Below are positions 17,591-35,561 of a stretch of DNA of 41,973 nt, piece by piece. Each line of letters starts with the position of its first letter. Position 1 is the first letter of the stretch. The translations under genes and the position numbers were made by a program. Below the pieces are notes generated by a model, which was not told the DNA's origin, searched no databases, and saw nothing but the letters and a program-made list of their open reading frames with translations. The stretch spans positions 1 to 41,973 of the forward strand of contig JAQUKH010000025.1 in the NCBI GenBank assembly GCA_028719205.1, read 5' to 3'. The DNA is from a bacterium (lineage in GTDB: Bacteria > JACRDZ01 > JAQUKH01).

Positions 17591-17692
17591 GGCCCCCTTA
17601 TAAAACAGGCTTGATACGGGAAATATTTACCCGTATCATCCTAATTAGTGGATCCTGTGCATGGAGCACGGATAATAAAAAAGGGGGCTTTT
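17591..17692 (+). promoter_or_regulatory. Structured leader of the IS110-type transposase gene
   Basis: GATACGGG (17613-17620) and CCCGTATC (17630-17637) form a perfect 8-base hairpin. GTGC/GCAC (17656-17659 / 17665-17668) form a second small hairpin around ATGGA. The outer GGCCCCCTT (17591-17599) can pair with AAGGGGGC (17681-17688), which contains the ribosome-binding site of the transposase. The leader could therefore hide that site. IS110-subgroup elements encode a bridge RNA in this position; this could be one, but the loops were not assigned. Confidence 0.4.
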
Positions 17693-18745
17693 ATGAACTT
17701 TTATAACGCTCAAAAATCATTTTACTGCGGAATTGACCTGCATTCAAGAAATATTTATATCTGCCTAATGGATAAAGACCGGAAAATATTAGTCCACAGA
17801 CAGCTTAAAAGCAGAGCTACTGATATTCTCATTAAAATATTTGAACCATATAAGCATGATCTGGTTGTTGCCGCTGAATCTACTTTCGCCTGGTATTGGC
17901 TTGCGGACTTCTGCGCGGAAAATAATATCGAATTTATTTTAGGCCATGCTTTATATATGAAAGCCATTCATGGAGCTAAAGCAAAAAATGATCGAATAGA
18001 TTCTGAGAAAATAGCTCTGCTGGCGCAAGGTGGTATGTTTCCTTTATCATATGTCTATCCAAAAGAGAAAAGAGCTTTACGAGATCTATTAAGAAGAAGG
18101 CTTCATTTTGTTAATATCAGAGCCAAATTATTCGCTCATGTTCAGATCGTCAATTACCAGAACAATAATGAATCCTTAAAAAAACTCAGCAATAATAAAT
18201 CTATCCGCCCGGATATTCCTTCTTTCTTTTTCGATGAAGATATTAAAAAATCCATAGAAGCCGATCTGGAAACAATTGCTTATTTTGATAACATCATCCC
18301 TAAATTAGAGTGGCATATTCTATCTAAAGTTAAACAACAATATCAAAAAGAACTTTCTATTCTTTCTTCCGCCAGAGGTATGGGAGACATCATTGCATTA
18401 ACCATTCTTTTTGAAATTGACACTATAAACAGGTTCGAATCCGTTCAGGATTTCGCTTCTTATTCCAGAGTAGTTAAATGTCAGCATAGCTCTGCGGGTA
18501 AAATATGCGGCTCAGGCGGATCCAAAATAGGCAATCCTTATCTTAAAAGGGTATTCTCTGAAGCCGCCTGCCTTATGGCAACCTATAATCCCTCAATTAA
18601 AAAGTATCTCGATAAATTAAAACGCAAACACCATAATAGAAAGGCTTTAATAATTTTAGCTCACAAAATAGCTAAAGCTGTTTACTATATGCTGAAAAGG
18701 GAGACTGTATTTGATATAAATAAATTTTTAGAAAATAATAATTAA
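17693..18745 (+). CDS. IS110-family transposase (DEDD/RuvC-like)
   Basis: The 350-residue product has the N-terminal RuvC-like DEDD set: GIDLHSRN (Asp15), AAEST (Glu62) and KNDRIDSEK (Asp100, Asp103). The C-terminal Transposase_20 region has RGMGDIIALTILFEI, then HSSAGK around residues 265-270, where the serine nucleophile is expected, and KIGNPYLKR. I start at ATG 17693, preceded by AAGGGGG; the frame is open back to 17648 but without homology. The gene looks intact. It is the only complete mobile-element gene in the window. Confidence 0.85.
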   Translation: MNFYNAQKSFYCGIDLHSRNIYICLMDKDRKILVHRQLKSRATDILIKIFEPYKHDLVVAAESTFAWYWLADFCAENNIEFILGHALYMKAIHGAKAKNDRIDSEKIALLAQGGMFPLSYVYPKEKRALRDLLRRRLHFVNIRAKLFAHVQIVNYQNNNESLKKLSNNKSIRPDIPSFFFDEDIKKSIEADLETIAYFDNIIPKLEWHILSKVKQQYQKELSILSSARGMGDIIALTILFEIDTINRFESVQDFASYSRVVKCQHSSAGKICGSGGSKIGNPYLKRVFSEAACLMATYNPSIKKYLDKLKRKHHNRKALIILAHKIAKAVYYMLKRETVFDINKFLENNN

Positions 18746-25707: not shown

Positions 25708-25941
25708 TTATACCGCTATTACTTCTTTTACTGACGGTACTTCCTTTTTTAATATTTTTTCTACCCCGTTCTTTAAAGTCATCTGGCTCATGGGGCAGCA
25801 TCCGCAGGCGCCGGTTAATTTTACCTTTACTTTACCGTCGGAGGTTACTTCAACCAATTCTATATCTCCGCCGTCAGCTTTAAGCATGGGCCTTATTTTA
25901 TTCAAAGCAGCTTCAACTTTTTCTTTCATTTTGTCCTCCAA
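25708..25941 (-). CDS. NifU-like (NFU) iron-sulfur scaffold protein
   Basis: The 77-residue product is a stand-alone NFU domain with the CxxC motif Cys46-Gly-Cys-Cys49 in GACGCCPMSQMTL. Such proteins carry and deliver [4Fe-4S] clusters. It is the only supported gene on the minus strand, with its own promoter at 25980-25952 and a terminator. It may serve the many Fe-S proteins nearby: Rrf2, CysH, sulfite reductase and the radical SAM protein. Confidence 0.92.
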   Translation of the reverse strand: MEDKMKEKVEAALNKIRPMLKADGGDIELVEVTSDGKVKVKLTGACGCCPMSQMTLKNGVEKILKKEVPSVKEVIAV

Positions 25942-27161: not shown

Positions 27162-27190
27162 TTGACAAATAGGTTTTTGTTTATTATAAT
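27162..27190 (+). promoter_or_regulatory. Promoter of the sulfur-assimilation operon
   Basis: TTGACA (27162-27167) and TATAAT (27185-27190) match the consensus perfectly with a 17-base spacer. A GATAGGAG ribosome site and ATG 27220 follow. No second promoter was seen before 34733, so all genes from 27220 to 34723 may share this one. The first gene encodes an Rrf2 regulator, which suggests autoregulation; no operator could be defined. Confidence 0.85.
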
Positions 27191-27219: not shown

Positions 27220-27663
27220 ATGAGGCTTTCAACAAAAGGACAATATGGTACCAGGGCGATGCTTGAATTGGCTCTTTATAAAGAGGGCCCATTATTGCTG
27301 AGAACTATTGCAAAAAATCAGGATTTATCTGAAAGATATCTTGAGAGGATAATGACTGACTTAATTTCAGCGGGTCTTGTAAGAAGTTTAAGAGGGAAAT
27401 GCGGAGGTTTTATTTTGGCAAAACCCCTGGATGAAATTAAGTTAAGCCACATTATTCAGGCAACAGAGGGATCAATCAGCCCGGTTGATTGTTTGGATGA
27501 TCCTAAATCATGTAAGCGTGTTAAATATTGTGTGACTTATGATATCTGGGGAAGATTGAAAGATGAAATGCAAAAGGTGCTTGATTCAATAACCTTGGCT
27601 GATATGGTCCAAATGCAAAAGAAAAAAACTAAAGAATTAGAAAAAGAAATGTATTACATCTAA
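27220..27663 (+). CDS. Rrf2/IscR-family transcriptional regulator
   Basis: The 147-residue protein starts MRLSTKGQYGTRAMLELAL, with the winged helix following (LSERYLERIMTDLISAGLVRSLRG). Three cysteines at 91, 98 and 104 sit where IscR binds its [2Fe-2S] cluster. It heads the sulfur operon, 12 bases before cysH. I infer that it controls the operon in response to Fe-S or cysteine status; related Rrf2 proteins (CymR, IscR) do this. The ligand is not known. Confidence 0.88.
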   Translation: MRLSTKGQYGTRAMLELALYKEGPLLLRTIAKNQDLSERYLERIMTDLISAGLVRSLRGKCGGFILAKPLDEIKLSHIIQATEGSISPVDCLDDPKSCKRVKYCVTYDIWGRLKDEMQKVLDSITLADMVQMQKKKTKELEKEMYYI

Positions 27664-27675
27664 TAAGGAGAAAAA

Positions 27676-28374
27676 ATGACGGAAGATTTAGAGCAAAAAA
27701 CACCGCAGGAAATAATCAAGTGGGCGCTTGAAAAATATCAAAACAAGGTTGCCCTGGCTTCAAGTTTTGGGGCAGAGGATGTAGTTTTGATAGATATGCT
27801 GGTAAAAGTTGCAAAAGAGAATGATCTGGGGGATGTGGAAATTTTTACGTTGGATACCGGCAGGCTGCCTGAAGAGACATATAAATTGATGGATAAAATA
27901 AGAGAAAAATATGGTGTAAATCTGGAAGTTTATTTTCCTGATACAAAAGCTGTGGAGGATATGGTCTATGAGCATGGATTTAATTTGTTTTACAAGAGTA
28001 TTGATTTAAGAAAATTATGCTGCAAAGTCAGAAAAGTTGATCCTTTAAACCGCGCGTTGAAAGGTTTAGACGCATGGATTTGTGGGTTAAGAAAAGAACA
28101 GTCTGTGACAAGGTCTGAAGTTAAAAAAGTTGAATTTCCTAAAGACGGTAAAGGGATAGTTAAAATAAATCCACTAACTGATTGGACGGAAAAAGATGTA
28201 TGGAATTACATAAAAAGGAATGACGTGCCATATAATGAACTTCATGATAAGAATTATCCAAGTTTAGGTTGTGGGCCTTGTACCAGGTCTATTAAACCGG
28301 GCGAGGATGTAAGAGCTGGCAGGTGGTGGTGGGAAAGCCCGAACAAGAAGGAATGTGGATTACATAGTAAGTAA
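27676..28374 (+). CDS. cysH: Adenylylsulfate (APS) reductase, Fe-S type CysH
   Basis: The 232-residue enzyme reduces adenylylsulfate to sulfite and [17 protein letters not shown] and [12 protein letters not shown] are the nucleotide-binding parts. Cys115-Cys116 (KLCCKVRK) and Cys199-Cys202 (GCGPCTR) are the four [4Fe-4S] ligands that distinguish APS reductases from cluster-free PAPS reductases. ECGLH at the end (Cys227) carries the catalytic cysteine. No APS kinase gene follows, which fits direct APS reduction. It is preceded by AAGGAG. Confidence 0.93.
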
Positions 28375-28382
28375 GCAAAGAC

Positions 28383-28414
28383 AAGTCACAAGTTTCAAGT
28401 CACAAAGTCACAAG
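28383..28414 (+). repeat. Three short copies of AAGTCACAA between cysH and sat
   Basis: AAGTCACAA occurs at 28383-28391, 28397-28405 and 28405-28413. Downstream, GTGAC (28433-28437) and GACTTGTG (28444-28451) are inverse to parts of it, so the 107-base gap can fold back. It resembles dispersed intergenic repeat sequence more than a regulatory site. Confidence 0.5.
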
Positions 28415-28481
28415 AAAAAAAAGTATGTTACTGGTGACGTGGGGACTTGTGCACTGGAGGCTTTTTATAAAAGGAGCTAAA

Positions 28482-29636
28482 ATGATTCTACCTCATGGTG
28501 GTAAGTTAACAAATTGTGTCAAAATTGGAGATGAAAAAGAAAAGCTTATAAAAAAATCGAAACATTTAAAAAAAATTCACCTCACTCCAAGGGAAATATC
28601 TGATCTGGAGATGATTGCTATTGGTGGATTTAGTCCGTTAGATGGATTTATGAGAAAAAAGGACTATCACAATGTAATAGAGTATAACCGGTTGGTTACG
28701 GGGTTGCCTTGGACTATTCCTATTACTCTAGCGGTTAATAAAGAAGAAGCAGATACTCTTAAAGAAGGCGAAGATGCCGCGCTAGTTGATGCTTCCGGAA
28801 AAGTGCTTGCTATTCTTCATTTGGATGAAAAATATGAATATGACAAAAAAAAAGAGGCCAGATTGGTCTATGGTACAGAGGAAGCAGTCCATCCGGGCGT
28901 AAAAATAGTTTATGAGCAGGGAGAAGTTCTTTTAGCCGGTAAAGTCAGTGTTATAGAATGCCCTAAACATAATGATTTTATAAACTATAGATTAAATCCT
29001 GCTGATACACGGAGGATCTTTAAAGAACGCGGATGGAAAAGGGTTGTCGGCTTTCAGACAAGAAATCCTGTTCATCGGGCGCATGAATATATTTTAAAGT
29101 GCGCGCTGGAGGTGGTTGACGGGTTACTGCTTCATCCTATTGTCGGAGAAACCAAGAGCGATGATATTCCGGCGGATACACGGATGAAATGTTATGAGGT
29201 TTTATTGGAAAAATATTACCCGAAAGAAAGAGTTCTTTTAGCGGTGAATCCGGCGGCAATGAGATACGCGGGCCCGAAAGAAGCGATTTTCCATGCCATT
29301 GTCCGGAAAAATTACGGCTGTACGCATTTTATAGTCGGCAGAGATCATGCCGGTGTTGGAAATTATTATTCTCCTTTCGCGGCTCAGGATATCTTTGATG
29401 AGTTCTCGCATGATGAGATCGGTATAATCCCGCTTCGGTTCGGGAACAGTTTTTATTGTAAAAAATGTGAAGGAATAGTTTCTGAAAAGACTTGTCCTCA
29501 TCCAAAAGAAGAACACTTTTCTCTTAGCGGGACAAAAGTAAGGGATCTATTGAGAAACGGCGAGATGCCGCCGGTTGAATTTACGAGGCCGGAAATCGCG
29601 AAAATTTTGATCGGATGGGCGAAAAATCTGGCATAG
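28482..29636 (+). CDS. sat: Sulfate adenylyltransferase (ATP sulfurylase)
   Basis: Sat makes adenylylsulfate from ATP and sulfate, the substrate of the CysH just upstream. The 384-residue protein has the active-site signature [13 protein letters not shown] (QxRNPxHxxH) and [11 protein letters not shown]. It also has a C-terminal zinc-type CKKC...C...H region, as in the homo-oligomeric bacterial and archaeal form. I start at ATG 28482 behind AAAGGAG; the frame extends to 28425 through repeat sequence without homology. There is no fused APS kinase domain. Confidence 0.95.
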
Positions 29637-29659
29637 GGCAAAGAGCATGGAGCATAGAG
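29637..29659 (+). repeat. AGCATRG short repeat between sat and the JAMM gene
   Basis: GCATAGG (29632-29638) is followed by AGCATGG (29644-29650) and AGCATAG (29651-29657), a degenerate 7-base tandem repeat starting at the sat stop codon. It fills the gap to the next gene and supplies part of its ribosome site (AGAGGG). Confidence 0.4.
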
Positions 29660-29665
29660 GGAAAA

Positions 29666-30067
29666 ATGATGGAGATTAAGAAAGAATTTATAGCCCAAAT
29701 TATGGAACAGGCAAAAAAGGGGCGTCCCAAAGAGGTTTGCGGAATTATCGCGGGTAAAGAAGGTACGGTAAAAAAAATATATGAAATGGCAAATGTTTCA
29801 GAGACTCCGGAAACATTTTATTTTATGGATTCACAGGAGCAGTTTAAGGTATTAAAGGATATGCGAAATTCAGGGATAGAGATGCTGGGGATCTATCATT
29901 CTCATCCGGCATCCAGGGCTTATCCTTCAGAAGAAGATTGCAGGATGTGCTTTTATCCTGATGCGTTTTACATGATAATTTCGCTTAAGAATTTTGACAG
30001 GCCGGAAATTGGCGCGTTTAAAGTAAATGGGAACAAAATTACTGAAGAAAGATTGGAGATCGTATGA
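29666..30067 (+). CDS. JAMM/MPN+ metalloprotease (Mec/HcyD-like)
   Basis: The 133-residue protein has the complete JAMM zinc site: Glu23 in KEVCGIIAG, His78 and His80 in YHSHP, then Ser88 and Asp91 in PSEED (H-x-H-x7-S-x2-D). Bacterial members such as Mec and HcyD trim residues after the C-terminal diglycine of sulfur carriers. The operon encodes two carriers whose diglycines are internal to fusions (31600 and 33328), which are the obvious substrates. The start is ATG 29666 or 29669, behind AGAGGG. Its last four bases overlap the sulfite reductase gene. Confidence 0.9.
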   Translation: MMEIKKEFIAQIMEQAKKGRPKEVCGIIAGKEGTVKKIYEMANVSETPETFYFMDSQEQFKVLKDMRNSGIEMLGIYHSHPASRAYPSEEDCRMCFYPDAFYMIISLKNFDRPEIGAFKVNGNKITEERLEIV

Positions 30068-31590
30068 GCGATAAAATAAATGTTGAAGAATTAAAAAGAG
30101 GCGGAGTTGTAAAGTTAAAAGAAAAAGGGTTATTTTCTGTCTGGGTTAAAACTTATTGCGCTAATCTTAATTCAAAGCAATTAAAAAAAGTTGCGGAATT
30201 GAGCGAAAAATACGGGCGCGGCATTATCCTGTTTTCTACACGGCAGATTCCGATCATTCCTTTTGTAAAGCTTGAGGATATTGATGCCATAAAAAGAGAG
30301 CTGAAAAAAGTTGAGGTAGGCCTTGACAGGTGCGGGCCGAGGATCCGGAACATAAATGTCTGCTATGAAGATAGTATCTGCAAAGACGCTATAAGTAATT
30401 CTTTGCTTTTAGGTGAAAAGCTGGAAAAATATTTTGATGACCCGATACTTCATAAAACAAAAATTGGTATTTCCGGATGTTCCAGAGACTGTATTGCCGC
30501 AAGGGTTTTAAATGATCTATGTTTTATCAGCGTGGGGAAGAACGGCCTTTATGACGCGTATCTGGGCGGCAAGCTTGGATTAAAACCATTTATCGGTTTA
30601 AAAATGGCCGGGCCGATTTCGGAGGATAATTGTATTAAATTTGTTGATAATTATTTTAATTTAATGAAGAGAGAAGGGAAAGACAAGGAACGCTCAGCGG
30701 ATATAATAAACAGGCTTGGCAAAGAGGCAGTTCAAAAAGACGTTTTAAAGGACCTTGATAAAATTGATATTTCAAAAATAAAATGTTCAACGCATGTTGA
30801 GGATAAACAATTTGATAAAGTAATTCTGAAAATTAAGGCAACCTGCGGTGAGCTTACAGCAAAACAGGTTAAAAATATATCAGATGTGGCAGAAAAATAC
30901 GGAAATGGATTTATACATTTTACGATCTATGGTTCGCCGGAAGTACCGGGTATAGACAAAAACAATATTGAAAAGATAAGGCTGGAACTTTTAAAGGAAA
31001 ATGTGGAGATACTTGATAAGGGTATTGATAATATACAGACATGTTTTGGGGGGTATTGTGTTAAAGGAGTATTTGATACTCAGTCTTTGTTAAAAAAAGT
31101 AGATAGATCAATTGGAGAATCCGGTTTAAAAAATCAGGATATAAAAATATCCGCGTCCGGCTGCCCCAGTTCCTGCGGGATTTCATACCTTTCCGATATC
31201 GGATTTTTAGGGGTAGTTGAACCTGTGATAGATGAGGGTAAATGCAGCGGATGTGGTATTTGCGAAAAAAACTGCAAGGTTAAGGCAATAAAGATCATTA
31301 ATAAAATAGCCTTTGTTGATAAAACAAAATGCAGTTATTGCGGAGAATGTATCAAAAGCTGCCCTGTTGATGCTGTCCAGGCAAAAAGAGCGGGAATAAA
31401 AATGCTGGCTGGCGGGGCTTACGGCAAAGAAACAGCATTAGCGGAGCCTATCGCTGAGTTTTTATCCGAAGAGAAGGCATTAAACATTACAAAAAATTGT
31501 TTACAAATAATAAAAGAAAGAAATATCAAATTAAGAACAATAATTAACGAAGTAGGGCTCGATAAGTTTAAAAAAATGGTTTTAAAATAG
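30064..31590 (+). CDS. Two-module siroheme sulfite reductase with inserted ferredoxin domain
   Basis: The 508-residue chain holds two sulfite reductase modules. Module 1 (about 1-235) has Cys100, 106, 139 and 143 (C-x5-C ... C-x3-C). Module 2 (about 250-508) has Cys327, 332, 367 and 371 (C-x4-C ... C-x3-C). A 2x[4Fe-4S] ferredoxin (Cys394/397/400/404 and 423/426/429/433) is inserted in module 2 after FLGV, the place it occupies in DsrA and AsrC. Both modules therefore keep a siroheme/[4Fe-4S] set; in CysI only one half does. The role is sulfite to sulfide, the product feeding the carriers downstream. AsrC- and low-mass-type reductases are the nearest relatives. Confidence 0.85.
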   Translation: MSDKINVEELKRGGVVKLKEKGLFSVWVKTYCANLNSKQLKKVAELSEKYGRGIILFSTRQIPIIPFVKLEDIDAIKRELKKVEVGLDRCGPRIRNINVCYEDSICKDAISNSLLLGEKLEKYFDDPILHKTKIGISGCSRDCIAARVLNDLCFISVGKNGLYDAYLGGKLGLKPFIGLKMAGPISEDNCIKFVDNYFNLMKREGKDKERSADIINRLGKEAVQKDVLKDLDKIDISKIKCSTHVEDKQFDKVILKIKATCGELTAKQVKNISDVAEKYGNGFIHFTIYGSPEVPGIDKNNIEKIRLELLKENVEILDKGIDNIQTCFGGYCVKGVFDTQSLLKKVDRSIGESGLKNQDIKISASGCPSSCGISYLSDIGFLGVVEPVIDEGKCSGCGICEKNCKVKAIKIINKIAFVDKTKCSYCGECIKSCPVDAVQAKRAGIKMLAGGAYGKETALAEPIAEFLSEEKALNITKNCLQIIKERNIKLRTIINEVGLDKFKKMVLK

Positions 31591-31599
31591 GAGAATTTT

Positions 31600-32061
31600 A
31601 TGGCTGTAAAATTGATAGTCAGCGGAAAACCGGAAGACTTTGAAAGTGAATTGACCATATTGGAATTTTTAAATAAAAAAAATATTTGGGTTGATATGGT
31701 TACTGTTGAGGTTAATGATAAGATCATTCCGAAGCAGGATTATCAAAAGGTGTCCTTAAAGGAAAACGACAGGGTAGAAACAGTGTTTTATATGGGCGGC
31801 GGCATGGTTGATATTAAAATTAATGAAAAACTTGATATCCGCGGGGTGCTTTGTCCCATGAATTTTGTTAAGACGGTTTTAAAGCTGGAACAAATGCAGG
31901 ATGAAGAAATATTAGAGGTTTTACTCGATGACGGTGATCCGATCGCGAATGTACCGCGGAGTGTGAAGGAAGAAGGTCATGAGATCGTGGCAGTTGATAA
32001 AATGGAGAATGGATTCAGGCTATTAATTAGAAAGAAACTCCCCCTTGATCCCCCTCTTTAA
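31600..32061 (+). CDS. ThiS-TusA fusion: ubiquitin-like sulfur carrier with internal triglycine joined to a TusA domain
   Basis: Residues 1-68 are a ThiS/MoaD-like beta-grasp domain ending KENDRVETVFYMGGG, where a free carrier would end. After one methionine, residues 70-144 are a TusA domain with LDIRGVLCPMNFVKT (Cys85 the sulfur-carrying cysteine) and VPRSVKEEGHEIV. The second proline of the usual CPxP motif is replaced (CPMN). The diglycine can only be adenylated if cut free, which the operon's JAMM protease could do. The last eight residues (KLPLDPPL) are encoded by a palindromic repeat that overlaps the stop codon. The start follows AGGAG. Confidence 0.85.
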   Translation: MAVKLIVSGKPEDFESELTILEFLNKKNIWVDMVTVEVNDKIIPKQDYQKVSLKENDRVETVFYMGGGMVDIKINEKLDIRGVLCPMNFVKTVLKLEQMQDEEILEVLLDDGDPIANVPRSVKEEGHEIVAVDKMENGFRLLIRKKLPLDPPL

Positions 32062-32084
32062 TTAAAGAGGGGGGTGGGGGAGTT
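32036..32084 (+). repeat. 49-base palindromic repeat covering the 3' end of the ThiS-TusA gene
   Basis: Outer arms AACTCCCCC (32036-32044) and GGGGGAGTT (32076-32084) flank an inner perfect palindrome, CCCCCTCTTTAA (32050-32061) with TTAAAGAGGGGG (32062-32073). It looks like a dispersed C-rich MITE/REP-type repeat. It supplies the last codons and the TAA of the upstream gene and ends 14 bases before the ATG of the next. Such a strong hairpin could lower expression of the distal genes. Confidence 0.8.
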
Positions 32085-32097
32085 AAAGGAGTTTAAT

Positions 32098-33321
32098 ATG
32101 TCTTTTGTAAAAGGATTGAAATGCAGAGAATGCGGAAGGTTGTTTCCGAAAGAGCCGCTTTATGTTTGCGAGTATTGTTTCGGGCCGTTGGAATTGGATT
32201 ATGATTATCCGCTGATAAAGAAAAAACTTAATAAAGAAGTAATCGAGTCGCGCGCGAAAAATCTTTGGAGATATAAAGAATTACTGCCTGTTGACGGAAA
32301 CCCGATAGTCGGGCTTGATTCAGGTTTTACGCCTCTGGTAAAGGCTCATAATCTTGCAAAAAGATTAGGAGTGAAGGAATTATATATTAAAGATGATTCG
32401 GTATGCCATCCAACATTATCTTTTAAAGACAGAGTAGTATCGGTCGCGATCACAAAGGCTAAGGAATTTGGTTTTGATACTGTCGCATGCGCTTCCACGG
32501 GTAATCTGGCGAATTCGGTTTCGGCGCAGGCCGCGAAAGCGGGAATGAAATGTTTTGTTTTTATCCCGTCTGACCTTGAGGCCGGAAAAGTGATAGCCTC
32601 GCTTATTTACGCGCCTAAGGTCATATCGGTAGAAGGCAATTATGATGAGGTCAACCGCCTTTGCACGGAAATAGCGGCTAAATATAAATGGGCGTTTGTT
32701 AATATTAATATAAGGCCGTATTACGCGGAAGGGTCGAAAACATTCGCGTACGAAATTGCGGAACAGCTGGGTTGGAAAGCTCCTAAGCATATTATTTCGC
32801 CCGCGGCAGGAGGTTCGTTAATAACGAAAATTTATAAGGGCCTGCATGAATTAAAAAAACTGGATTTAATTAATGATGTTCCTACAAAAATTTACGCTGC
32901 CCAGGCAAAAGGCTGCGCGCCGATCGTAAACGCGATAAAAGAAGGAAGTGAAATTATAAAGCCGGTAAAGCCGGATACGATAGCCAAATCACTGGCGATC
33001 GGTAATCCAGCGGACGGTTATTACGCGTATAAAACAGTTATTGAAAGCGGCGGTTTCGCGGATGACGCGACGGATGAAGAAATAGTTGAGGGAATAAAAT
33101 TACTTGCTTCGACGGAAGGGATATTCACGGAGACCGCGGGCGGAGTTACAGTCGCTGTAACTAAAAAATTAATTGAATCAGGCAGGATCCCGAAGGATGA
33201 GTCAATTGTAATTTCGATCACAGGGAACGGATTAAAAACACAGGAGGCGGTTTTAGGCAAAGCGGGGAATGTTTTCAGGATAAAACCGGATATTGATTCT
33301 TTTGAAAAAACGTTATATTAA
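32098..33321 (+). CDS. Threonine synthase-like PLP enzyme (candidate homocysteine synthase)
   Basis: The 407-residue fold-type-II PLP enzyme starts with a zinc ribbon (Cys9, 12, 24 and 27). It has the PLP lysine in TLSFKDR (Lys110), the substrate loop STGNLANS and phosphate-binding residues late in the chain. By sequence alone it would be called threonine synthase (O-phosphohomoserine to threonine). The operon instead suggests that it adds sulfur from a carrier thiocarboxylate to O-phosphohomoserine, making homocysteine, as CysM does with O-phosphoserine. I start at ATG 32098 behind AAAGGAG; the upstream open frame is repeat sequence. Both roles remain possible. Confidence 0.85.
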   Translation: MSFVKGLKCRECGRLFPKEPLYVCEYCFGPLELDYDYPLIKKKLNKEVIESRAKNLWRYKELLPVDGNPIVGLDSGFTPLVKAHNLAKRLGVKELYIKDDSVCHPTLSFKDRVVSVAITKAKEFGFDTVACASTGNLANSVSAQAAKAGMKCFVFIPSDLEAGKVIASLIYAPKVISVEGNYDEVNRLCTEIAAKYKWAFVNINIRPYYAEGSKTFAYEIAEQLGWKAPKHIISPAAGGSLITKIYKGLHELKKLDLINDVPTKIYAAQAKGCAPIVNAIKEGSEIIKPVKPDTIAKSLAIGNPADGYYAYKTVIESGGFADDATDEEIVEGIKLLASTEGIFTETAGGVTVAVTKKLIESGRIPKDESIVISITGNGLKTQEAVLGKAGNVFRIKPDIDSFEKTLY

Positions 33322-33327
33322 GGAGAT

Positions 33328-34431
33328 ATGATGAGTATAAAAATAAGAGTTCCAACCCCATTGCAGGTTTTAACTAAAAATCAGTCAGAAATAGAAAGTG
33401 CCGGAGAAGATATTAAAGGCCTGATCGATAATCTTGAAACGCAATATCCGGGTATTAAGCAGAGATTATGTGATGAAAGCGGTAAAATTAGAAGGTTTAT
33501 AAACTTTTTTGTGAATGAGCAGGATATCAGATTTTTGCAGGGCGACAGGACAAAATTAAATGACGGTGATATAGTCTCTATCATTCCGGCGATCGCAGGC
33601 GGCGAACATCAAAACAAAAGAGTAAAAGAATTAACAGATTCACAGATCGAAAGATACAGCAGACAGATAATTTTACCCGAGGTGGGCGGCGCCGGCCAAT
33701 TGAAATTACTTTCCGCGAAGGTTTTAATAATCGGGTGTGGAGGATTAGGTTCTCCCTGCGCATATTATCTGGCAAGCGCGGGTATCGGGAAAATTGGCCT
33801 TGTTGACGGCGATAAGGTTGAATTAAATAATCTTCAGCGCCAGATCATTCATTTTACAAAAGATGTGGGAAAGCTAAAGGTAGAGTCCGCTAAAGAAAAA
33901 TTAAAGGCAATTAATCCGGACATTGATGTGGTTACCTATCCTTTGAGGGTCAATTCACAAAACATTCTGGATATAATAAAAGATTATGATATCGTTGTTG
34001 ATGGAAGCGATAATTTCCCGACACGATATTTAGTTAACGATGCCTGTATAATGGCTAAAAAACCGTTTTCACACGCCGGAATTTTAAGGTTTGAAGGACA
34101 GGCTATCACGATAATCCCTAATGAAGGGCCTTGCTACCGCTGTCTTTTTCCGGATCCTCCTCCTCCGGGTATGGTGCCTTCCTGTTCACAGGCAGGAATT
34201 TTGGGCGGGGTCGCCGGTATTTTAGGAGAGATCCAGGCTACAGAGGTTTTAAAATTCATTTTAGGGAAAGGTGAATTATTGCTCGGCAAACTTCTTGTAT
34301 TCAATGCCCTGAAGATGGATTTCAGAAAACTGAATATTCAAAGAAATCCCGGTTGTCCGATTTGCGGAAATAAACCTACCATAACTGAGTTGATAGATTA
34401 TGAATTATTCTGCAGCGCGAGAAAAGAGTAA
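33328..34431 (+). CDS. CysO/MoaD-like sulfur carrier fused to a ThiF/MoeB-type E1 activating enzyme
   Basis: Residues 1-92 are a beta-grasp carrier ending DGDIVSIIPAIAGG, close to the ending of CysO-type carriers. EHQNKRVKELTD links it to an E1-like enzyme (about 103-367). That part has GCGGLGSP (ATP site, 137-143), LQRQIIHF (arginine finger region), DGSDNFPTRYLVND, the likely catalytic Cys286 in MVPSCSQAG, and zinc pairs Cys269/272 and Cys343/346. Such enzymes adenylate a C-terminal glycine for sulfur transfer. Substrate and enzyme on one chain, with the diglycine internal at 91-92, imply proteolysis before activation. Starts ATG 33328 or 33331. Confidence 0.88.
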   Translation: MMSIKIRVPTPLQVLTKNQSEIESAGEDIKGLIDNLETQYPGIKQRLCDESGKIRRFINFFVNEQDIRFLQGDRTKLNDGDIVSIIPAIAGGEHQNKRVKELTDSQIERYSRQIILPEVGGAGQLKLLSAKVLIIGCGGLGSPCAYYLASAGIGKIGLVDGDKVELNNLQRQIIHFTKDVGKLKVESAKEKLKAINPDIDVVTYPLRVNSQNILDIIKDYDIVVDGSDNFPTRYLVNDACIMAKKPFSHAGILRFEGQAITIIPNEGPCYRCLFPDPPPPGMVPSCSQAGILGGVAGILGEIQATEVLKFILGKGELLLGKLLVFNALKMDFRKLNIQRNPGCPICGNKPTITELIDYELFCSARKE

Positions 34432-34468
34432 AAACGTTAATATATATGTTTAAAATAGGGAGGAAGTT

Positions 34469-34723
34469 ATGTCTGAGAAAAAAATGTCGAAGAAAATAGT
34501 CAAATTAGTGTTTCCTCAGAAATTAATTAAAGAGCCTGTTACATACCTGATGGCAATAAAATATGGTATTATTCCCAATATACGCAGGGCAAAGGTTACA
34601 GAGACCGTCGGAGAACTGATTCTTGAGTTGGAAGGAGAAGCAAAGAATATAGAAAAAGGGGTAAAATATCTGCTTGAGTCAGGTGTGGATGTTGAACCTA
34701 TTGAGGGAGATATTGTAGATTAA
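34469..34723 (+). CDS. Stand-alone NIL-domain protein
   Basis: The 84-residue product is a single NIL domain (KKIVKLVFPQKLIKEPVTY, then GIIPNIRRAKVTETVGELILEL). NIL domains occur at the end of MetN, the methionine ABC transporter ATPase, where they bind methionine. They also occur, next to ferredoxins, in proteins needed for homocysteine formation in methanogens and sulfate reducers. At the end of a sulfur-carrier operon it supports a homocysteine/methionine role. GGGAGG precedes the ATG. Confidence 0.85.
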   Translation: MSEKKMSKKIVKLVFPQKLIKEPVTYLMAIKYGIIPNIRRAKVTETVGELILELEGEAKNIEKGVKYLLESGVDVEPIEGDIVD

Positions 34724-34732
34724 AAAAAGATA

Positions 34733-34761
34733 TTTACATTGATCCGCGGTTTTATTATAAT
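34733..34761 (+). promoter_or_regulatory. Promoter giving a nearly leaderless SUMF1-gene mRNA
   Basis: TTTACA (34733-34738) and TATAAT (34756-34761) have a 17-base spacer. With the usual discriminator, transcription starts near 34768, only about five bases before ATG 34773. No Shine-Dalgarno sequence fits in that space. Confidence 0.75.
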
Positions 34762-34772
34762 GAACATCTATT

Positions 34773-35561
34773 ATGAGAAATAAAACTGTAAATCTTTTTT
34801 TAATATTTTTGCTGGTTTTTACCTTTAAGTTGTTCGCGGAGGAAAAAGAAAATAAGTTACTGGAGGTAATTTCTCCTCCGCCCGCGCGTTCGGCGATGAT
34901 ATTAATCCCCGCGGGTGAATTTGTAATGGGATATGATAGCGGGAATTCAGATGAAAATCCGGTACATAAAGTCAATTTAAGCGCGTATTATATAGATAAA
35001 TATGAGGTTAACAACAGGGAATATCAGAAATTTGTAAGAGAAACTGATTATCCTCCTCCTGAGATCTGGAACAGTAAAGAATATAAAATTTTTAGTAAGC
35101 CGGATAAACCTGTAGTAGGTGTTAGCTGGGAAGACGCGTATAATTACGCTTCATGGGCGGGGAAAAGGCTTCCTACGGAAGCTGAGTGGGAAAAGGCGTG
35201 CAGAGGAGACAGCAGTTTATTGTATCCGTGGGGAGATAAAAAACCCGACAAGAGTTTAGGCAATTTCTGCAGTGACAAAACGGAAGACGTGAAATCTTTT
35301 CCTGAAGGTGTAAGCCCTTACGGCGTTTACAATATGCTTGGGAATGTATGGGAATGGTGTAATGACTGGTATGATGAAAATTATTACAAAGACTCTGTTT
35401 ATCAAAATCCATCCGGCCCCAAAATTACCGGCCGCCGCGTTTTGCGCGGAGGTTCCTTCTTATGTTCATTGGACATTTTACGCGCGACACTTCGAGGATA
35501 TGCCGATCCAAAAGATAAAACCATTTATTGCGGTTTTCGCTGCGCGAAAGATGTAAAATAA
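34773..35561 (+). CDS. Exported SUMF1/FGE-sulfatase-domain protein
   Basis: The 262-residue protein starts with a signal peptide (about 1-22, cleavage after KLFA). A complete SUMF1 domain follows: IPAGEFVMG, KYEVNNREYQKFV, VSWEDAYNYASWAGKRLPTE, LGNVWEWCNDWY, RRVLRGGSF and a final CGFRC. Formylglycine-generating enzymes need two cysteines in the segment after GGSF; here only Cys231 (GGSFLC) is present and the second is replaced by DIL. A structural or binding role outside the cytoplasm is therefore likelier than sulfatase maturation. It has its own promoter. Confidence 0.85.
   Translation: MRNKTVNLFLIFLLVFTFKLFAEEKENKLLEVISPPPARSAMILIPAGEFVMGYDSGNSDENPVHKVNLSAYYIDKYEVNNREYQKFVRETDYPPPEIWNSKEYKIFSKPDKPVVGVSWEDAYNYASWAGKRLPTEAEWEKACRGDSSLLYPWGDKKPDKSLGNFCSDKTEDVKSFPEGVSPYGVYNMLGNVWEWCNDWYDENYYKDSVYQNPSGPKITGRRVLRGGSFLCSLDILRATLRGYADPKDKTIYCGFRCAKDVK

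Follow-up and report, generated by a model that had tools for sequence, protein, structure and literature searches.

A candidate MetM/MetO-type operon joining sulfate assimilation to homocysteine synthesis in a bacterium of the JAQUKH01 lineage

The contig JAQUKH010000025.1 (assembly GCA_028719205.1; GTDB lineage Bacteria, JACRDZ01, JAQUKH01), analysed over positions 1 to 41,973 and referred to here as the window, carries nine + strand genes between positions 27220 and 34723 that combine (i) sulfate assimilation enzymes, (ii) two fused sulfur carriers with an activating enzyme (E1) and a JAMM protease, and (iii) a pyridoxal phosphate (PLP) enzyme of the threonine synthase (ThrC) family, named ThrX here. 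The set is very probably a sulfate assimilation and homocysteine operon of the MetM/MetO type described from Streptomyces. This reading draws on gene content, orthology, conserved clustering, phyletic pattern and linkage to riboswitches, from which the individual reaction steps are predicted. ThrX and the adjacent MoaD-type carrier are assigned as putative MetM and MetO by orthology and context.

Gene content of the operon

The promoter and genes are as follows, with domain assignments from Pfam and NCBIfam profile searches of the operon proteins.

27162..27190, +, sigma-70 promoter, TTGACA-17-TATAAT, a 12/12 match (to consensus only), 29 bases 5' of the Rrf2 start
27220..27663, +, Rrf2-family regulator, CymR/IscR-like, scoring under the CymR and IscR equivalog cut-offs
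27676..28374, +, CysH of the adenosine phosphosulfate (APS) reductase type; TIGR02055 (thioredoxin-dependent APS reductase) at 269 bits, cut-off 235
28482..29636, +, Sat, ATP sulfurylase (Pfam/NCBIfam); ATG at 28482, reading frame open from 28425
29666..30067, +, JAMM (Prok-JAB) metallopeptidase with the intact motif HSHPASRAYPSEED (HxH...S..D); putative carrier-maturing or carrier-releasing protease
30064..31590, +, sulfite reductase, two NIR_SIR repeats and a 2x[4Fe-4S] ferredoxin domain
31600..32061, +, ThiS-TusA fusion; ThiS residues 1-68 (31600-31803, end MGGG), TusA residues 69-153 with its own Met at 31804
32098..33321, +, ThrX, MetM-type PLP enzyme of the ThrC family; Cys9, 12, 24 and 27, PLP Lys110
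33328..34431, +, MetO-E1 fusion; MoaD-type carrier residues 1-92 (33328-33603, end PAIAGG), then a ThiF/MoeB-type E1
34469..34723, +, stand-alone NIL protein, with carrier-NIL fusions in other genomes; putative amino-acid-binding partner of MetM/MetO

An earlier reading made from the sequence alone (the sequence-only reading) had proposed this gene order behind one promoter with small gaps, and the open reading frame list, the domain searches and the promoter match bear it out; the spacing ranges from a 4-base overlap to 107 bases. CysH has the CC and CxxC cluster motifs. Judged by its domains, what that reading called a two-module sulfite reductase is the ordinary internal repeat of the family joined to a ferredoxin domain. 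The Rrf2 gene holds the same position in a genome of the same genus (G001) and also adjoins several other ThrX loci. The open reading frame list and domain search gave no ThiG, ThiH or MoaE gene in the operon, and a repeat scan of the operon returned nothing bearing on function.

ThrX and its relatives

ThrX is labelled thrC by NCBIfam, and its predicted model (pLDDT 91.6) is closest to solved threonine synthases. In phylogeny, however, ThrX and its relatives form one clade (support 100/99) apart from ThrC, with actinomycete (L138, L227), cyanobacterial and Aquificota members; the identity of ThrX to a Nonomuraea protein is 52.8%. The four cysteines and Lys110 are nearly all invariant among 39 relatives. 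In an alignment whose Thermus ThrC row begins with five filler residues, Leu137, Asn204, Arg206 and Tyr209 of ThrX replace Thermus Thr88, Ser155, Asn157 and Arg160, and do so in nearly all of 135 ThrX proteins.

The family has a broad distribution. Of 386 genomes searched, more than 60 carry ThrX with an identity of at least 50%, and public genome contigs hold at least 585 relatives, the best 80 of which come from Omnitrophota, Nitrospirota, Nitrospinota, Methylomirabilota, Rokubacteria, Poribacteria, Planctomycetota, Verrucomicrobiota, Aquificota and others. In a survey of 137 loci, the genes up to 3.5 kb from ThrX include a MoaD-type carrier in 114 cases, NIL in 86, CysK in 59, ThiF in 56, JAMM in 33 and TusA in 29. 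The neighbourhood search suggested in the sequence-only reading thus recovers the same gene set in G001 and parts of it in many phyla.

One operon of a Nitrospirota genome (L089) runs homoserine dehydrogenase, TusA, ThiF, JAMM, ThrX, MoaD, NIL, ThrC, a proposed homoserine kinase (TIGR02535 above cut-off) and aspartokinase. Operons of this type, in which ThrX-MetO-NIL directly precedes the housekeeping ThrC, were seen at L089, L093, L155, L157, L160, L161, L164-L167, L172 and L176; an ApgM-like proposed homoserine kinase and aspartokinase come next in L089 (by family search) and in L093, L157 and L164 (by the start of the sequence). Proteins with two NIL domains in tandem occur in or near ThrX cassettes at L100:5246-5737, L101, L105 and L122.

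Evidence on the product

Gene presence was compared between 51 genomes with ThrX and 28 controls, counts in which related genomes are treated as independent and several genomes are incomplete. Another ThrC-type protein is found in 48 of the 51, sometimes in the ThrX operon itself; ThrX is thus not the house threonine synthase, and a role as sole threonine synthase is ruled out. The house threonine synthase of the window genome (G000) lies on contig C63. Gamma-family Cys/Met enzymes (PF01053) are found in 16 of the 51 ThrX genomes as against 20 of the 28 controls, HcyBio is present in 7 of the 51, and neither is found in 29 of the 51 as against 4 of the 28 (p = 3e-4). Among the 35 ThrX genomes lacking gamma-family enzymes, 26 have a homocysteine methyltransferase domain. 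MetX is confined to those ThrX genomes that also have PF01053, which, as far as the search for MetX goes, would leave O-phosphohomoserine as the activated homoserine. Three Aquificota genomes with ThrX, the one labelled Aquifex aeolicus (L187), L197 and L220, have no matches to PF01053, HcyBio or MetX.

Riboswitches point the same way. A SAM-I or SAM-II (S-adenosylmethionine) riboswitch lies upstream of ThrX on the same strand, within about 1 kb, at 15 of the 50 loci scanned, among them the actinomycete-like L138 (72% GC) and the Nonomuraea locus L227. Because of the second ThrC, the pattern of missing homocysteine enzymes and MetX, the SAM riboswitches and the Nitrospirota gene context, the conversion of O-phosphohomoserine to homocysteine is by far the best-supported candidate route for ThrX.

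Proposed mechanism

Sulfate would be activated and reduced to sulfite by Sat and the APS reductase, and sulfite to sulfide by the sulfite reductase-ferredoxin. The ThiF part of the E1 fusion would adenylate the C-terminal Gly-Gly of MetO, and the adenylate would be converted to a thiocarboxylate by sulfur that TusA may pass on. ThrX (MetM) would then swap the phosphate of O-phosphohomoserine for the MetO sulfur, yielding homocysteine for methionine; the 2024 work on Streptomyces MetM reportedly showed use of O-phosphohomoserine with thiocarboxylated MetO. JAMM is proposed to cleave behind Gly-Gly and so release both carriers, MetO from E1 and ThiS from TusA. ThiS would be a second carrier whose ancestral partner is a cysteine synthase, kept between ThiS and TusA in G001; NIL probably binds a methionine-like amino acid, and Rrf2 likely regulates the operon. 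The flow from sulfate through sulfide and a protein thiocarboxylate to an amino acid by a threonine synthase-type enzyme, as the sequence-only reading had it, is broadly supported, with O-phosphohomoserine to homocysteine the best-supported acceptor route.

Gene fusions in sister operons

Both carriers are fused in the window, as had been proposed, but the fusions are specific to the lineage and both carriers are unfused in G001. In that genome the operon (L044) reads Rrf2-CysH-Sat-JAMM-SIR-ThiS-CysK-TusA-ThrX-MoaD-ThiF. ThrX of the window is 91% identical to that of G001 and 79% to that of a further genome, G380 (L087). Compared to G001, CysK is gone from the window operon and ThiS, with its MGGG end, reads directly into the first Met of TusA. 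A two-carrier device of ancient origin was considered for ThiS-TusA and rejected as a general explanation, as the fusion is found only in the window genome and the sister has CysK between both genes. At the end of the fusion a G+C-rich inverted repeat (32038-32081, CTCCCCCTTGATCCCCCTCTTTAATTAAAGAGGGGGTGGGGGAG) encodes the last residues LPLDPPL, which are absent from the TusA of G001; it resembles a short palindromic repeat inserted at this site.

ThiS is instead fused to CysK in G380 and three other genomes (L087, L147, L154, L208). Because of these fusions and the position of CysK between ThiS and TusA in G001, ThiS would seem to be paired with the cysteine synthase and MoaD with ThrX. MoaD and ThiF are fused in the window and G380 but are separate genes in G001, where an AT-rich palindromic stretch (L044:9840-9920) lies between them. 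Given this distribution, a split in G001 is the simplest reading, in which the repeat may have divided a fused MetO-ThiF gene.

The carrier end PA[IV]AGG is near-constant across loci, whether exact, short-tailed, or continued in frame with NIL (about 17 loci) or E1 (3 loci). A nearby JAMM gene is seen at 13 of 19 loci with fused carriers compared to 7 of 36 with a carrier ending exactly at GG (p = 8e-4, related loci counted as independent). A fuller scheme may be drawn from these arrangements, in which two dedicated carriers, ThiS with CysK for cysteine and MetO with MetM for homocysteine, share one E1, JAMM and sulfate reduction line; the precursor fusions (ThiS-TusA, ThiS-CysK, MetO-E1 and MetO-NIL) would be cut by JAMM after Gly-Gly, as a bacterial counterpart of ubiquitin-ribosomal protein precursors, and NIL would be a methionine-sensing subunit. 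This scheme is tentative and, taken as a whole, somewhat doubtful.

Comparison with known systems

The sequence-only reading took the pairing of a ThrC-type enzyme with a carrier for an arrangement not yet described. It is that of MetM/MetO: PMC12172450 cites Hasebe et al. 2024 for the homocysteine synthase function of Streptomyces MetM and gives the annotation of metO as a sulfur-carrier gene. The same paper notes that metM of S. albulus has a SAM riboswitch, absent in Microcystis, and that the Microcystis enzyme (51.6% identical to MetM) carries an extra N-terminal region. To the extent that this source describes the system, the window shares with it the pairing of a Gly-Gly sulfur carrier with an N-terminally extended ThrC-family PLP enzyme; the window carrier lies directly downstream of ThrX and ends PAIAGG, the E1 following in frame. 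L138, presumed a Streptomyces-like orthologue, likewise has an adjoining carrier and, as for S. albulus metM, an upstream SAM riboswitch. The comparison with the MetM clade is drawn through actinomycete and cyanobacterial members rather than the S. albulus MetM sequence itself. By contrast with the system so described, MetO of the window is fused to E1, the operon adds a sulfate reduction route, JAMM, NIL, TusA and a second carrier, it is led by Rrf2 and lacks a SAM riboswitch, and its host also has the DUF39 route to homocysteine. A new enzyme that makes homocysteine from O-phosphohomoserine, as the missing pathway of Price et al., was also considered for ThrX and is rejected, since MetM/MetO had already been described in 2024. 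This type of system is therefore known; the joining of sulfate assimilation to MetM/MetO, the fusion of MetO to its own E1 and that of ThiS to TusA are new.

Other carrier systems differ in the acceptor enzyme. In HcyS/HcyD/HcyF/MetY of Wolinella succinogenes, carrier, JAMM and E1 similarly feed homocysteine, with sulfate assimilation genes nearby in relatives (e.g., L046, L047), but the acceptor is MetY (PF01053), which acts on O-acetylhomoserine, and the window genome has neither a PF01053 enzyme nor MetX. CysO/Mec/CysM of mycobacteria shares the carrier thiocarboxylate, JAMM and a fold-type II PLP enzyme, whereas its product is cysteine and CysM is not of the ThrC family; the window operon has no CysM/CysK, and a CysK partner is retained by its relatives G001 and G380 alone. 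Class 4e of Iyer et al. 2006 (PMC1779556) has ThiS/MoaD, JAB, an E1 without rhodanese, TusA/SirA, a phosphoadenosine phosphosulfate/APS reductase, Sat and sulfite reductase, but its PLP enzyme is O-acetylhomoserine sulfhydrylase, in whose place ThrX stands here; the passages of that paper that were searched mention no threonine synthase-like enzyme or NIL. The version with O-acetylhomoserine sulfhydrylase is found in relatives L045-L047. The DUF39/COG2122/NIL-ferredoxin route (PMC5764234), present elsewhere in the window genome, likewise has a NIL domain and leads to homocysteine, but starts from aspartate semialdehyde without a carrier, and its NIL has a ferredoxin domain that the operon NIL lacks. 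Literature searches gave no other description besides those compared here.

Opposing evidence and alternative explanations

Several observations weigh against homocysteine formation by ThrX. Thermus Thr88, Ser155 and Arg160, which we take to bind phosphate in ThrC, are Leu, Asn and Tyr in ThrX, with the invariant Arg206 close by. No SAM riboswitch was found in the window or in G001, and the genomes behind the phyletic counts are related. The window genome has no PF02574 methionine synthase domain; MetE-type enzymes, homoserine dehydrogenase and homoserine kinase were not searched there. It also has a complete DUF39 route, with a COG2122-type protein (NF003323, presumably COG2122 itself), HcyBio and CysK at C46 1627-4604 (L141) and, at a second locus, a NIL-ferredoxin directly after a cysteine desulfurase (C36 10312-10734; L234:1813-2235), so ThrX is not needed to explain the homocysteine of this genome. 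With this separate NIL-ferredoxin on C36, the operon NIL is unlikely to be a DUF39 partner. Finally, PMC12172450 describes both threonine formation from O-phosphohomoserine and threonine deamination by the Microcystis enzyme in vitro.

That result, together with the closest solved structures and the thrC label, favours a second threonine synthase, or threonine synthase/deaminase, whose adjacent carrier is unrelated to its reaction. This is quite improbable given the other ThrC-type protein in 48 of the 51 genomes, at times in the same operon, the carrier nearby in 114 of 137 loci, the upstream SAM riboswitches and the altered active-site residues. A similarly small chance is given to ThrX as a cysteine synthase that moves carrier sulfur onto O-phosphoserine or O-acetylserine in the manner of CysO/CysM: no carrier system is better known than CysO/Mec/CysM, ThrX often has CysK-type genes and Rrf2 in its neighbourhood, and the regulator is closest to IscR/CymR, yet the window genome already has two cysteine synthases (CysK on C46 and a CysK/M-like enzyme on C26), the cassette itself includes CysK in 59 of 137 loci, and the riboswitch and enzyme-gap patterns indicate methionine. 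A role of the carriers and E1 in thiamine or molybdopterin synthesis or tRNA thiolation, with their place in the operon a coincidence, is extremely improbable; their closest named families are indeed ThiS/MoaD and ThiF/MoeB, but the block of carrier, PLP enzyme and NIL repeats across phyla and the operon is devoid of ThiG, ThiH and MoaE.

A less remote but still unlikely alternative, compatible with a MetM/MetO-type operon and differing in flux alone, is that the sulfide from the operon goes mainly into cysteine by way of the remote CysK enzymes, DUF39 provides the homocysteine, and ThrX/MetO serves as a backup when sulfide is scarce. The genome has the two CysK enzymes and all of the DUF39 set, and HcyBio accompanies ThrX in the 7 genomes noted above; against this, neither ThrX nor MetO is disrupted and their conservation is high (91% for ThrX compared to G001), which argues for steady use. 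The organism would have two ways to homocysteine. The search for conventional genes that the sequence-only reading had called for turned up two cysK-type genes and the thrC on C63, with no MetX match and no PF01053 match at E <= 1e-60 in the window genome (best 42 bits). That reading had also counted complete cysteine and homocysteine pathways elsewhere, without conserved clustering, against its own proposal; the pathways are present as two CysK-type enzymes and DUF39, but the clustering is strongly conserved in other genomes, and the proposed function is therefore not refuted.

Neighbouring genes

Directly after the operon, in the window (34773-35561, with its own promoter-like site at 34733) as in G001, lies a gene for a protein resembling formylglycine-generating enzyme (FGE)/sulfatase-modifying factor. 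Upstream on the minus strand (25708-25941) is a small protein resembling the NifU C-terminal Fe-S scaffold, and an open reading frame after the ribosomal protein operon (17648-18742) resembles an IS110-type transposase, both judged by eye.

Implications

Price et al. 2018 pointed to at least one as yet unidentified route to homocysteine, naming Aquifex aeolicus, Pyrolobus and Acidimicrobium (PMC5764234). The MetM/MetO block, present in the genome labelled Aquifex aeolicus, would fill this gap in 29 of the 51 genomes sampled. The fused carriers allow a straightforward test of JAMM as a carrier-maturation protease. Current models continue to annotate MetM-type proteins as threonine synthase; thus, many uncultured phyla are likely misjudged as to methionine prototrophy.

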